A stretch of 16,137 nucleotides of DNA from positions 1 to 16,137 of the forward strand of contig JACRIR010000100.1 of the NCBI GenBank assembly GCA_016215705.1, read 5' to 3'. Source of the DNA: Candidatus Poribacteria bacterium. GTDB taxonomy: Bacteria; Abyssobacteria; SURF-5. The position numbers and the translations under genes are program-made. The notes below the pieces were generated by a model. That model was not told where the DNA came from. It did not search any database and worked only from the letters and a program-made list of their open reading frames with translations. Below are positions 546 to 7,855 of this stretch, piece by piece (the stretch's first letter is position 1; the number at the start of each line of letters is the position of its first letter).

Positions 546-875
546 TTTGCAAGGCAGTCCGCCTGGAGCCTCTAAAAGGGTCGTAATCAGTTCGTGTCAA
601 AATACTTCGATGATTCTGAGATCAGACCGCGATTCCGTGCTGTGGCAAAAGGTCTGACAATTCCTCACCGCAGGCGGTCGTCAAATCCTCCTTTGAAACT
701 GCCCCGCAATTGGCTAACTGGCAGCCAACTCCGTAAGTGCAAATCCATTCGTACAATGTTTTCGGACCCTTTCCGAATCTCGCCTAAGAATGAATTCGCG
801 CCTACGGAATAGCGAGATGGATTCTTCTTCGCCTTGTCCCGGTTTCCCCTTTGTCCCCTCGACAGCCTTTTGCTC

Positions 876-904
876 TGGACGCCAGTGGCTGCGAAAGCTA
901 AAAT
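876..904 (+). promoter_or_regulatory. Candidate sigma70 promoter for rtcA
   Basis: TGGACG at 876-881 and TAAAAT at 899-904 are separated by 17 bp. The predicted start of transcription is near 911, about 19 nt before the rtcA ATG. The -35 matches 4 of 6 consensus bases and the -10 matches 5 of 6. Confidence 0.4.
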
Positions 905-929
905 AGTTGTGAAGAAAGGATGGGGACTC

Positions 930-2024
930 ATGATGATCGAAATCGACGGCTCATACCTTGAGGGCGGCGGCGCCATCCTGAGAGTGGCCTCGGCCCTCGC
1001 CGCAGTTACCGGCAAGCCAATGAAGGTTCACAAGATTCGAGCCGGAAGGAAGAACCCGGGCCTTAGAGCGCAACATTTGGAAGGTCTTAAGGCAGTAGCT
1101 GAGTTGTGCTCCGGGCGTCTGGTAAATGCCGAGCTTGGTTCAACCGAAATCGAATTTCATCCTGGAGTAATCAGGCCGGCAAAGCTCGAGATTCAGATAT
1201 CTACCGCCGGAGCATTGGGATTGGTCTTCCAGTCGCTCAAAGTTCCACTCTGCCTGGCAGGCGACGAGGTAACCGTAAACATACGCGGCGGGGCGACCTT
1301 TGGGAAATGGGCGCCGCCAGTGCCTTACACGATGAACGTGCTGCTTCCAGTCTTAAAGAATATAGGGTACACCGCCGAGATAACAATTAAGAAACACGGG
1401 TTCTATCCGAGGGGCGGAGCGGAAGTCGAGATGAGGGGCTTCCCCTGCCTCTATCCTATTGAGCCGAATTCATTCAGCCTCTTTTCCCGTAAACCCTTCC
1501 GGCCTTTGCATATGATAGACCGTGGCGCTGTTGGAAAAATCGCCGGCATATCTGTTGCCAGCAAACATCTCCGCAAACCCAGGGTCGCCGAAAGACAGGC
1601 CGAGGCCGCAAAGAAGAGTCTGGAGGCAAGGGGACTGGAAGTTTCAGTTGATGCACAGTATGCAGACGCCGCGTGCGCGGGTTCAGGCGTCGTGCTATGG
1701 GCAACCACAAGCACCGGCGCCATCCTGGGCGCAGACTCGCTCGGTGAACGAGGCAAACCATCAGAGAAGGTCGGAGAAGAAGCGGCAATGCAAATACTCC
1801 AAACAATTGATTCGGGCGCGACGGTCGATAAACACCTTTCGGACCAGTTGCTCATTTTCATGGCGCTGGCCGAAGGCCAATCAGCCATCACCGCCCCCGA
1901 ACTCACAGACCACGCCAGGACGAATATCTGTGTCATACAAAATTTCCTGCCGGTCGAGTTCAAAATAACCGACGGCACGCCAACCCTGATCGAATGCTCG
2001 GGGAAAGAAAGAGAATCGGAATAG
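930..2024 (+). CDS. rtcA: RNA 3'-terminal phosphate cyclase
   Basis: RtcA converts an RNA 3'-phosphate end to a 2',3'-cyclic phosphate using ATP through a covalent enzyme-AMP intermediate; it acts in the cytoplasm in RNA repair. The 364-residue product has the usual family length. Visible family signatures are the N-terminal DGSYLEGGGAILR (about residues 6-18), the basic stretch RAGRKNPGLRAQHLEGLKA (37-55), HGFYPRGGAEVE (156-167) and, near the C-terminus, KHLSDQLL, whose His302 corresponds to the nucleotidylated histidine (His309) of the E. coli enzyme. I start at the ATG at 930, which is followed by a second ATG and preceded by GAAAGGA about 9 nt upstream; an in-frame extension to 834 would add 32 residues unlike the family. 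It is the only plus-strand protein gene. Neither rtcB nor the regulator gene rtcR is beside it. Confidence 0.95.
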   Translation: MMIEIDGSYLEGGGAILRVASALAAVTGKPMKVHKIRAGRKNPGLRAQHLEGLKAVAELCSGRLVNAELGSTEIEFHPGVIRPAKLEIQISTAGALGLVFQSLKVPLCLAGDEVTVNIRGGATFGKWAPPVPYTMNVLLPVLKNIGYTAEITIKKHGFYPRGGAEVEMRGFPCLYPIEPNSFSLFSRKPFRPLHMIDRGAVGKIAGISVASKHLRKPRVAERQAEAAKKSLEARGLEVSVDAQYADAACAGSGVVLWATTSTGAILGADSLGERGKPSEKVGEEAAMQILQTIDSGATVDKHLSDQLLIFMALAEGQSAITAPELTDHARTNICVIQNFLPVEFKITDGTPTLIECSGKERESE

Positions 2025-2697: not shown

Positions 2698-3861
2698 TCA
2701 ATCACCCACTTCAAACAGACGGCGAGGTGTGTTCGATAACAACTCCACTCCACTGGCTTTTACAATGAACGAGTCTTCTACTTTGATCGCGCCGAAGCCG
2801 GGAATGATTGTGTTGATTTCTATCGCAAGCGTCATATTCTCTTTGATTATTGTCGGATCGTCCGGGCCTATAATCGGTGGCTCATCGAGCTCGAGACCAA
2901 GCCCGTGTCCCACAAATCTCCCCTTCTCCTCGTATCCCATAAAATATTCGCCATATTTCGTCTTAGCGGCGGCCTGAACACCCTGCGCATAAACCTCGGC
3001 TGCCGGCACACCCGGCCGGATGGCGGACAGAATCTCATCCTCGACTTCACAGAGGGCGTCAAAAACATCTTTCTGTTTCTTCGAGGCCTTCCCGATAACG
3101 TATTGCCTTGTCGCATCGGTTATATAACCGTGGTAGCAGCCTGTAATATCAATCATAATGAGGTCGCCGCGCTTCAAAGCCCGACTCGAGGCGCTGATCC
3201 GCATCGCGGGGCTGAGCCCGATTCCCGTGGCGACATTGGCAAAGCCCGCAAAACGGGTAAGATTCTCGCCCGAGCCGATCATGCCGTACATCGTGTATGC
3301 ATCGAAACGTCTGTTGACAAGGATGCCCTCGTGTTTGTTCCGCCGGAGCTCGGCCTCTATCGCGGCTGCCATCTCGATCTCGTCCATGCCGTCGCGGATC
3401 ACTTCGAGCGCACGCCGCTGTCCCTTTTCAATCATCGAAGCTGATACGCGAACGAACTCGAGTTCACGCTCGTCCTTTATCATGCGCTGTGAAATTATCA
3501 GCGAACTGACGTTTACGAACGCTGCGTGTGGCAGCGCATCGCGAATCTTGAAAAACAATTCCGCCGGTATCACATCGAGCTCGAGACCGATTGTCAAACG
3601 ATCAAGTTCCTCAGAACGAACCTGTTCCGCGACCGAACGCAAGCTGCCGTCGGCGACAACGTCGCTCACGGTGGCGTCCTGCCGGGCGAACCCGATTGCC
3701 CGCCGTACATACAACCGCGCCGTTTGATGGGTTATCAATAGAATACTCGGAACCGAGACACCCGCGTAGTAATAAATATCCCGAGAATAGAGCAGGATGG
3801 CTGCCTGAATAGAATTGCGCGCCATTTCAGCGCGAAAGACGTTGATGCGTTGCTCAGACAT
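2698..3861 (-). CDS. M24 family metallopeptidase (Xaa-Pro aminopeptidase/dipeptidase-like)
   Basis: A 387-residue cytoplasmic pita-bread-fold peptidase, probably removing N-terminal residues ahead of proline or splitting Xaa-Pro dipeptides. Residues 1-125 form the creatinase-like N-terminal domain and about 132-385 the catalytic domain. All five dinuclear metal ligands are visible: D238 (MIDITG), D249 (TDATRQ), H319 (VGHGLGLELDEPP), E348 (AIEIN) and E362 (KVEDSF), so it should be active. Length matches PepQ-type enzymes and not the longer PepP. No signal peptide is seen. The ATG at 3859-3861 has only a weak purine-rich stretch upstream. It follows the AhpD-like selenoprotein gene by 111 bp and precedes the gamma carbonic anhydrase gene by 73 bp on the same strand. 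Exact substrate cannot be told from sequence. Confidence 0.92.
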   Translation of the reverse strand: MSEQRINVFRAEMARNSIQAAILLYSRDIYYYAGVSVPSILLITHQTARLYVRRAIGFARQDATVSDVVADGSLRSVAEQVRSEELDRLTIGLELDVIPAELFFKIRDALPHAAFVNVSSLIISQRMIKDERELEFVRVSASMIEKGQRRALEVIRDGMDEIEMAAAIEAELRRNKHEGILVNRRFDAYTMYGMIGSGENLTRFAGFANVATGIGLSPAMRISASSRALKRGDLIMIDITGCYHGYITDATRQYVIGKASKKQKDVFDALCEVEDEILSAIRPGVPAAEVYAQGVQAAAKTKYGEYFMGYEEKGRFVGHGLGLELDEPPIIGPDDPTIIKENMTLAIEINTIIPGFGAIKVEDSFIVKASGVELLSNTPRRLFEVGD

Positions 3862-3972: not shown

Positions 3973-4272
3973 TCACTTCGCCTTGCCCTTTTCCCCTATT
4001 GTTAGCTCCAGCCCTTCGATGGCGTCAACAAGATGACTTCGAACTTTGCCGGCCGCCGCCATCATTGCGCAGGCCATCGTTTCTCGAAGTTCGTCATCGG
4101 TTGCTCCGGCTTCCTTTGCGCCCGCAAAGTGGGCTTTCGTTCAATGGCCGCAGCCGGCGACCGCAGCCGCAGCCAACAAAACAAGCTCACGCGTCTTTTC
4201 GTCAAGTGAACCTTCGATGTACTCGAACCGAAGAAACTTGTTGGTTTTCCTGATTGCGCTTTTCTCTTTCAT
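3973..4272 (-). CDS. AhpD-like (carboxymuconolactone decarboxylase family) selenoprotein, UGA = Sec44
   Basis: A 99-residue small helical protein of the AhpD/CMD family, interrupted at codon 44 (4141-4143) by an in-frame TGA. Around it the protein reads ELVLLAAAAVAGCGH-U-TKAHFAGAKEAGATDDELRE. This matches the family pattern with a CxxC redox pair followed by xxxH and an EAGAT turn, except that the second cysteine is the TGA codon. Such CxxU AhpD-like selenoproteins are known in bacteria. The frame continues 55 more codons with family-like sequence (ETMACAMMAAAGKV) to a final TGA. A GGGC-loop hairpin sits 11 nt after the codon. The ATG is preceded by TTTTGGAGG at about 6 nt, an excellent ribosome site, and a promoter lies about 90 bp upstream. 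Family role: peroxide or disulfide reduction; the substrate is unknown. It stands between the kinase gene and the M24 peptidase gene. Alternatives are a pseudogene or a sequencing error, both less likely given the hairpin and intact flanks. Confidence 0.85.
4114..4129 (-). promoter_or_regulatory. Putative bacterial SECIS hairpin
   Basis: On the minus strand CUUUGC-GGGC-GCAAAG forms a perfect 6-bp stem with a 4-nt loop. It begins 11 nt after the in-frame UGA, so the apical loop starts 17 nt downstream of the UGA. Known bacterial SECIS elements sit immediately 3' of the UGA inside the coding region, with a small apical loop roughly 16-37 nt away and a G in the first two loop positions. All of these hold here. 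SelB binding is inferred. Confidence 0.75.
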
Positions 4273-4358
4273 GGCATCCTCCAAAAGAGACGTTGAATCC
4301 GCAGAGTCCGTTGATTTGCGTGGTTCTTCACCGCTTAGGTGCAGAGAGGATGGGAAGA

Positions 4359-4421: not shown

Positions 4422-6158
4422 CTATCGTCTTTTCCAGGGTCTTTCCAGGAATCCAATGAACAGATGTATGAAAAAGCCTAATGCGCCCCCGAGTACAATC
4501 CAGTCAAGAGGCACAGCCCAAATTGCCGAAAACAGTTGGTGGACGCCAAGGAATGCGGCGAAACCTGCCGCCCCTCCCACAGCGCCCCATATCAAGCAAC
4601 CGATCAGATATCCGGCGGACCTCTCATATACACCGTCGGCGATTCCGAGGAATCCGCCGATGACTGCGCCATACAGCGCCTCACGATATGAGGATTTCAA
4701 CGGACCGAACGTGGGCGCGCCGAATCCTGACGTAAGCATGTACGTGGCCACAGCGCCCCCGATGATCCCCAGGGTGAGCGAAAACATTCCCCTCAGTGTC
4801 TTTTTATAAGCGATGCCGACAGCGGCTCCGATGAGTCCTCCGTATAAGAAGAGGCTCAATTGAAAGAGGGTCTCCCGGCTCATGGGCCAACGACCAGTCC
4901 GTTCGGCGGCGGCTACCAACAAGCCCGCAAGAACGCCCGCCAACGCGCCCAGCGGCATGCGCGCGTGTTCGCGCTCAGGGGCATAGTCTCCCAACCCTGC
5001 ATTCTTCTCGACCTTGCTCACGCGGTCGATGACCCGCGCCGACCTTTCCGGCGCCGACATCTTGTACACTTCAACGCGATTCAGTTGAGGAGGCTCAGCT
5101 TCGGGTTCAGCGAAAGGCGCGGCAGTCGTCGCGGCCGGAGCCAACTTGATCTCTTCTTCGTTGCGGAGCCACCACGGCAGGTATTTGCCCTGCATGGGGA
5201 TGCCGATATCCTGCTGGCCGGTCAAAACGGCTTTGAGTTCCGCTGCGCTTTGCCATCTGCCTTCAGCTTCTTTTCGCAGGCATTTCAACACCACCGTGTT
5301 CAACCAGACAGACAAGCCTTCAATCGGCTTCGGGATAACGTGCAGATGTTGAAGGCTTACTTCTTTTCCCTTGAACGGCGGCGTTCCCGCCAACATCTCG
5401 TACATCGTTATCCCGAGCGAATAGATGTCGGTTCGCCCATCGAGCGGGCGGCCGAAAATCTGTTCCGGACTCATGTAAATCGGCGTGCCGCCACCCAATT
5501 CGCTGCTGTCAGTTTCGCTCATAAAGGCAATCCCGAAATCCGCGAGCTTGACACGATGGTCGCTCGTGATAAGAATATTGCTCGGTTTTATGTCTCTGTG
5601 TATCACTTCTTCGGCATGCGCATACTTGAGCGCTTCGCAAACTTGAGGGATATAGCGCAAAACCTCGGCCTCGGTGAAGCGCCGATTTGGTTTCCTCAGC
5701 GCCATCGAGGCGAGCGATTCTCCCTCCACGTACTCCATTAGAAGATACTTCACCCCGGCCGTCTCCTCGAAATTGTAAAGGCGGATGATATTCGGATGGG
5801 CCAGCTTCATGGCGGCCTTTGCCTCGCGCTTCAGACTCATGATGGCCGAAATGTCGTTCGCCAGGCCGTCGAGCAGAAACTTTATGGCAACATCCATGCC
5901 TAACTGGCGATCATGAGCCAGGAACAATAGCCCCATGCCGCCGCGCGCAATCTTCTCTTTCAACTCATATCGACTGCCCAGGCTGCGGCTGTACCTTTCA
6001 ATCAGCTCGCGGTCATCGGCCTCTGACGAGGGAGCACCCGTCTCCTCCGCCACGGCGACCGGAACTTCCGCAGCTCGAATGTGCGAAAATTTCTGACTGC
6101 ATTTGTGGCAGAAGTTGGCGTCGTCTCGATTTTCCACGCCGCAGTTATCACAAAACAT
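4422..6158 (-). CDS. Membrane Ser/Thr protein kinase with N-terminal zinc ribbon
   Basis: A 578-residue Hanks-type kinase. Residues 1-25 form a zinc ribbon (C3, C6, C17, C20). The kinase domain spans about 62-314: glycine loop ARGGMG (71-76), ATP-binding K93 in VAIK, HRD catalytic loop with D189 (HRDIKPSN), DFG at 207-209, and SPEQ (230-233) in the APE position, so it should be active. A linker rich in Ala, Pro and Glu (about 335-400) leads to a hydrophobic, glycine-rich C-terminal half with about six predicted membrane segments (roughly 403-420, 434-451, 460-477, 495-511, 516-538, 550-572). Most PknB-type kinases have one membrane helix and an extracellular sensor; here there are many helices and no large outer domain. 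The gene starts 3 bp after the cinA stop, with GAGG upstream inside cinA, so the two are translationally close. Targets are unknown. Confidence 0.93.
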   Translation of the reverse strand: MFCDNCGVENRDDANFCHKCSQKFSHIRAAEVPVAVAEETGAPSSEADDRELIERYSRSLGSRYELKEKIARGGMGLLFLAHDRQLGMDVAIKFLLDGLANDISAIMSLKREAKAAMKLAHPNIIRLYNFEETAGVKYLLMEYVEGESLASMALRKPNRRFTEAEVLRYIPQVCEALKYAHAEEVIHRDIKPSNILITSDHRVKLADFGIAFMSETDSSELGGGTPIYMSPEQIFGRPLDGRTDIYSLGITMYEMLAGTPPFKGKEVSLQHLHVIPKPIEGLSVWLNTVVLKCLRKEAEGRWQSAAELKAVLTGQQDIGIPMQGKYLPWWLRNEEEIKLAPAATTAAPFAEPEAEPPQLNRVEVYKMSAPERSARVIDRVSKVEKNAGLGDYAPEREHARMPLGALAGVLAGLLVAAAERTGRWPMSRETLFQLSLFLYGGLIGAAVGIAYKKTLRGMFSLTLGIIGGAVATYMLTSGFGAPTFGPLKSSYREALYGAVIGGFLGIADGVYERSAGYLIGCLIWGAVGGAAGFAAFLGVHQLFSAIWAVPLDWIVLGGALGFFIHLFIGFLERPWKRR

Positions 6159-7781: not shown

Positions 7782-7855
7782 TGGGCGCTACTGGACTCGA
7801 ACCAGTGGCCTCTGCGATGTGAACGCAGCGCTCCAACCAACTGAGCTAAGCGCCC
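7782..7855 (-). tRNA. tRNA-Val, anticodon CAC
   Basis: A 74-nt cloverleaf on the minus strand: acceptor GGGCGCT/AGCGCCC with discriminator A, D-stem GCTC/GAGC, anticodon stem CTGCG/CGCAG around loop TTCACAT (anticodon CAC, reading GUG), and T-arm ACTGG-TTCGAGT-CCAGT. The 3' CCA is not encoded. It has its own promoter and lies between ybgF and cinA. Confidence 0.96.

Follow-up and report, generated by a model that had tools for sequence, protein, structure and literature searches.

The locus at the centre of this work, in a 16,137-nucleotide stretch of DNA (hereafter the window), raises a simple question: does a short frame broken by one TGA encode a selenoprotein, or is it a gene that has been lost, misread or written in another code? 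We conclude that it is almost certainly a genuine bacterial selenoprotein gene of the CMD/AhpD superfamily. The gene lies on the minus strand, which a preliminary description of the same DNA had left unsaid, and the only interruption of its frame is the TGA of codon 44, which occupies the second position of a C-G-H-U redox motif (Table 1). With this TGA read as U, the translation is MKEKSAIRKTNKFLRFEYIEGSLDEKTRELVLLAAAAVAGCGHUTKAHFAGAKEAGATDDELRETMACAMMAAAGKVRSHLVDAIEGLELTIGEKGKAK. The preliminary description held that readthrough restores an AhpD/CMD protein that is family-like on both sides of the TGA, that the TGA falls at the second Cys of a CxxC, and that the ribosome-binding site is strong. 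All this stands: the PF02627 match runs across the TGA (residues 14-84) with 63.2 bits against a gathering score of 23 bits, residue 44 is indeed the second motif position, and a GGAGG precedes the ATG.

Table 1. Features of the window, with positions counted from its first nucleotide
Feature	Position	Strand	Remarks
CDS of CMD/AhpD-family selenoprotein	3973..4272	-	99 residues including U44; terminal stop TGA 3975-3973
Start codon ATG	4272-4270	-	From sequence reading
In-frame TGA, predicted Sec codon (U44 of C41-G-H-U44)	4141..4143	-	Kept in L032, L033, L034, L056, L076 and L083
Shine-Dalgarno GGAGG	4278..4282	-	5-nt spacer to ATG; read directly in the sequence
Predicted bSECIS upper stem-loop CUUUGC-GGGC-GCAAAG	4114..4129	-	UGA-to-loop distance 17 nt
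Downstream neighbour, M24 metallopeptidase (Creatinase_N + Peptidase_M24)	2698..3861	-	Shared with SURF_17 and G001
Upstream neighbour, Ser/Thr protein kinase-domain protein	4422..6158	-	Upstream also in SURF_17 and G001
RNA 3'-terminal phosphate cyclase (RTC) gene	834-2024		243 bits
tRNA gene	7782-7855	-	Between cinA-like and TPR-protein genes; Rfam

An in-frame TGA within a conserved frame would also be seen if TGA had been reassigned to an amino acid throughout the genome. However, 11 flanking ORFs of the window stop at TGA (five), TAA (three) or TAG (three), and TGA is therefore an ordinary stop in this DNA. Moreover, the Pfam-matched window genes that we read contain no internal TGA, which bears out what had been said of the other genes from the letters alone. 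The genome also possesses the dedicated machinery. In this assembly (5.47 Mb in 270 contigs, 92% complete), selB and selA adjoin on contig C228 (371 and 580 bits), selD is on contig C134 (391 bits), and a tRNA-Sec with anticodon UCA is on contig C59 (68 bits; anticodon tca according to ARAGORN). The complete set of selA, selB, selC and selD, predicted before the genome was searched, is thus present. A second match to the tRNA-Sec model, on contig C42 (51 bits), is a tRNA-Leu and was rejected. Both selB and tRNA-Sec were also found above cut-off in G001 and G002, which represent two further genera of the organism's family, and in the more distant genome G086. Finally, the in-frame TGAs that we saw elsewhere in the genome all fall at redox-motif positions. 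With TGA stops, selenocysteine machinery and such positions all speaking against it, genome-wide reassignment is effectively excluded.

These other in-frame TGAs deserve mention in their own right. The selD gene has one at SSGG-U-ACK, which corresponds to a Sec-containing selenophosphate synthetase (L095). Two thioredoxin/TlpA-like genes, L092 on contig C176 and L093 on contig C145, carry a TGA at AGU-KPC and AGU-NSC (UxxC). In each a strong hairpin follows the TGA, and both are likely selenoproteins. The same is likely for L094 on contig C85, a peroxiredoxin-like AhpC-TSA gene with a TGA in LW-U-LFC (UxxC). Since three genes of the AhpC-TSA fold have an in-frame TGA at UxxC, the organism probably uses several redox selenoproteins.

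As for the TGA of the window gene, it is found at the same codon in G001 and G002, whose proteins are 72% and 76% identical to the window protein, respectively. G002 is Candidatus Abyssobacteria SURF_17 (L061). Homologs from three more distant genomes, G086 (two genes in register), G363 and G310, have a TGA at the same column, and homologs without Sec have a Cys there. Column 44 is invariant in a 24-sequence alignment in which Sec is written as Cys, and the check for Cys or Sec at this position, which the preliminary description had called for, gave one or the other in the homologs aligned. A scan of genome contigs with the single window protein as query returned SURF_17 only, and a scan of viral contigs with the alignment of Sec homologs gave no match.

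The pattern of substitution extends this picture past the TGA. Beyond the TGA, the window gene and its SURF_17 counterpart show 6, 3 and 27 differences at first, second and third codon positions, respectively, and dN is about 0.10 both upstream and downstream of it. Across same-family comparisons dN is about 0.10-0.18 on either side, with dS saturated for most pairs. The excess of third-position differences, together with an equally low dN on both sides, shows that purifying selection acts through the TGA. In a single genome, a former CxxC protein that had acquired a nonsense mutation, or in which a base had been miscalled, would present the same appearance, namely a small gene with one early stop. 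Because two further genera, at 72-76% identity, retain the TGA, it is not a sequencing error. A decayed gene is equally hard to reconcile with a TGA that three genera and more distant homologs have preserved, that sits exactly at a catalytic Cys, and downstream of which selection is the same as upstream. Like reassignment, a pseudogene or sequencing error is effectively excluded.

Gene order is also shared. As in the window, the TGA gene of G001 and SURF_17 adjoins an M24 peptidase gene and lies downstream of a Ser/Thr kinase gene, with one extra gene between in SURF_17.

The preliminary description had also pointed to a SECIS-shaped hairpin at the right distance from the TGA. The hairpin exists: it has a 6-bp stem and a 4-nt loop with G at its first position, and a predicted energy of -8.7 kcal/mol. 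It fits the published bSECIS model (loop of 3-9 nt, stem of 4-16 bp, G in the first two loop positions, spacing of 16-37 nt and MFE of -7.5 or lower; PMC13188914), a model that many random sequences fit too. Taken alone, it is weaker evidence than was claimed. Its single-sequence fold does not reach significance (z = -0.29), and hairpins of the same stability within range follow 12% of random window codons and occur in 24% of synonymous recodings. An Rfam scan of the window at gathering thresholds returned the tRNA only.

Comparison across homologs is more informative. In all seven in-register Sec homologs, a 6-bp stem without mismatch closes a 4-nt loop that lies exactly 17 nt from the UGA; none of 18 Cys homologs has such a stem-loop at this place. 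Furthermore, the stem shows compensatory changes, pair 18-27 being C-G, U-A or G-C and pair 16-29 being U-A or C-G. We counted five double-change cells against 1.3 in shuffled alignments; none of 500 shuffles, and no slid register, reached five. This count is based on two varying pairs in seven in-register Sec sequences, a third CMD-family gene of G086 (L059) having been left out because its hairpin is out of register, with four of six pairs there. Since the sequences are only seven and the stem overlaps codons that are themselves constrained (FAGAK/LAGAR), we regard the covariation as supportive, not overwhelming. L059 itself has its in-frame TGA at CEYU, and its own loop is 20 nt away, not 17. 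Another G086 homolog (L056) has a perfect in-register SECIS and an N-T-H-U motif, in which Sec is kept and the first motif Cys has become Asn. To judge from its motif, L056 may be a peroxidase that lacks the customary resolving Cys, or may perform other chemistry.

Together, these findings suggest how the gene would be expressed. SelB, with tRNA-Sec(UCA), would insert selenocysteine at the UGA, presumably guided by the stem-loop, which has its apical loop 17 nt further on. In the product, Sec44 would stand in place of the second Cys of the CxxC, with Cys41 as the putative resolving thiol.

The structure predicted for the window protein (pLDDT 84.5) consists of one CMD domain, helical throughout; its best matches are CMD-family structures (RclX 7y4r, E = 2e-4). 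In AhpD from Mycobacterium tuberculosis, a proton relay is formed by Glu118, Cys130, His132, Cys133 and His137 (PMC3141380). All five positions are present in the window protein by spacing, as E29, C41, H43, U44 and H48, with U for the second Cys. Because this spacing matches that of AhpD, Sec44 would replace the second Cys of the CxxC. On these grounds we somewhat favour one of two roles for the protein, that of a selenol/thiol peroxidase or that of a redox adaptor in the regeneration of a peroxiredoxin. No peroxiredoxin partner gene was found adjoining the selenoprotein gene. A less probable but serious alternative is that Sec is inserted into a CMD-fold redox or metal/arsenic-related enzyme that is neither a peroxidase nor a peroxiredoxin adaptor. 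Functions are diverse in the CMD family, the next NCBIfam matches after the best one are to AhpD domains of methyltransferase selenoproteins (ArsM_AhpD_UU and MduS), and TIGR04169 (arsenosugar biosynthesis) matches weakly. However, all five relay residues are in position, and no arsenic genes were found adjacent to the selenoprotein gene in the window.

The selenoprotein reading adds a well-supported selenoprotein, of a kind that routine gene callers split or overlook, to a deep-subsurface candidate lineage. In the literature searched, no paper mentions Abyssubacteria as well as selenocysteine, and selenium is absent from the text of the Abyssubacteria genome paper. In addition, the SECIS holds its 17-nt position in bacteria that are only distantly related, and so provides a clean case for studying how a bSECIS evolves when its sequence also has to code for protein.

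As for known systems, CxxU selenoproteins of PF02627 have been known since 2005, and the Abyssobacteria gene adds a member. The CMD-domain proteins of the Sargasso Sea (2005, four sequences; PMC1088965) and the AhpD-like 2 proteins of GOS (2008, 70 sequences; PMC2398784) have PF02627 and CxxU in common with the window protein. They are known from metagenomic reads, and our comparison with them covers domain and motif. A 2026 review lists CxxU families of CMD-like, AhpD-like and GSU3128 type, the last listed as a distant AhpD homolog (PMC13188914); GSU3128 was not found by name in the literature searched. The best NCBIfam model for the window protein is the GSU3128 family (seleno)protein NF041047. 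With Cys for Sec, the protein scores 72.2 bits, below the cut-off of 110, and is therefore a relative of this family, not a member as curated. In contrast, the G310 homolog L083, whose hairpin is in register with that of the window gene, passes (131 against 110). A tentative idea, which we consider rather unlikely, is that the window protein and its G086 and G363 homologs make up a distinct CxxU CMD subfamily. This would stand next to GSU3128, score under all full-length NCBIfam cut-offs, have a position-locked SECIS of its own and serve a function different from that of an AhpD-type peroxidase. The protein exceeds the curated cut-off of the AhpD core domain TIGR00778 (44.9 against 27.8 bits) and falls far below that of AhpD TIGR00777 (22.4 against 191.95). 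M. tuberculosis AhpD shares with the window protein the CMD core and the E-x11-C-x-H-[C/U]-x3-H spacing, but is longer, has two Cys and is a weak fold match (1knc/1gu9). The closest solved sequences and folds are RclX and other single-domain CMD proteins (PDB 7y4r, 1vke, 2cwq and 3bey), which lack Sec and are about 30% identical to the window protein.
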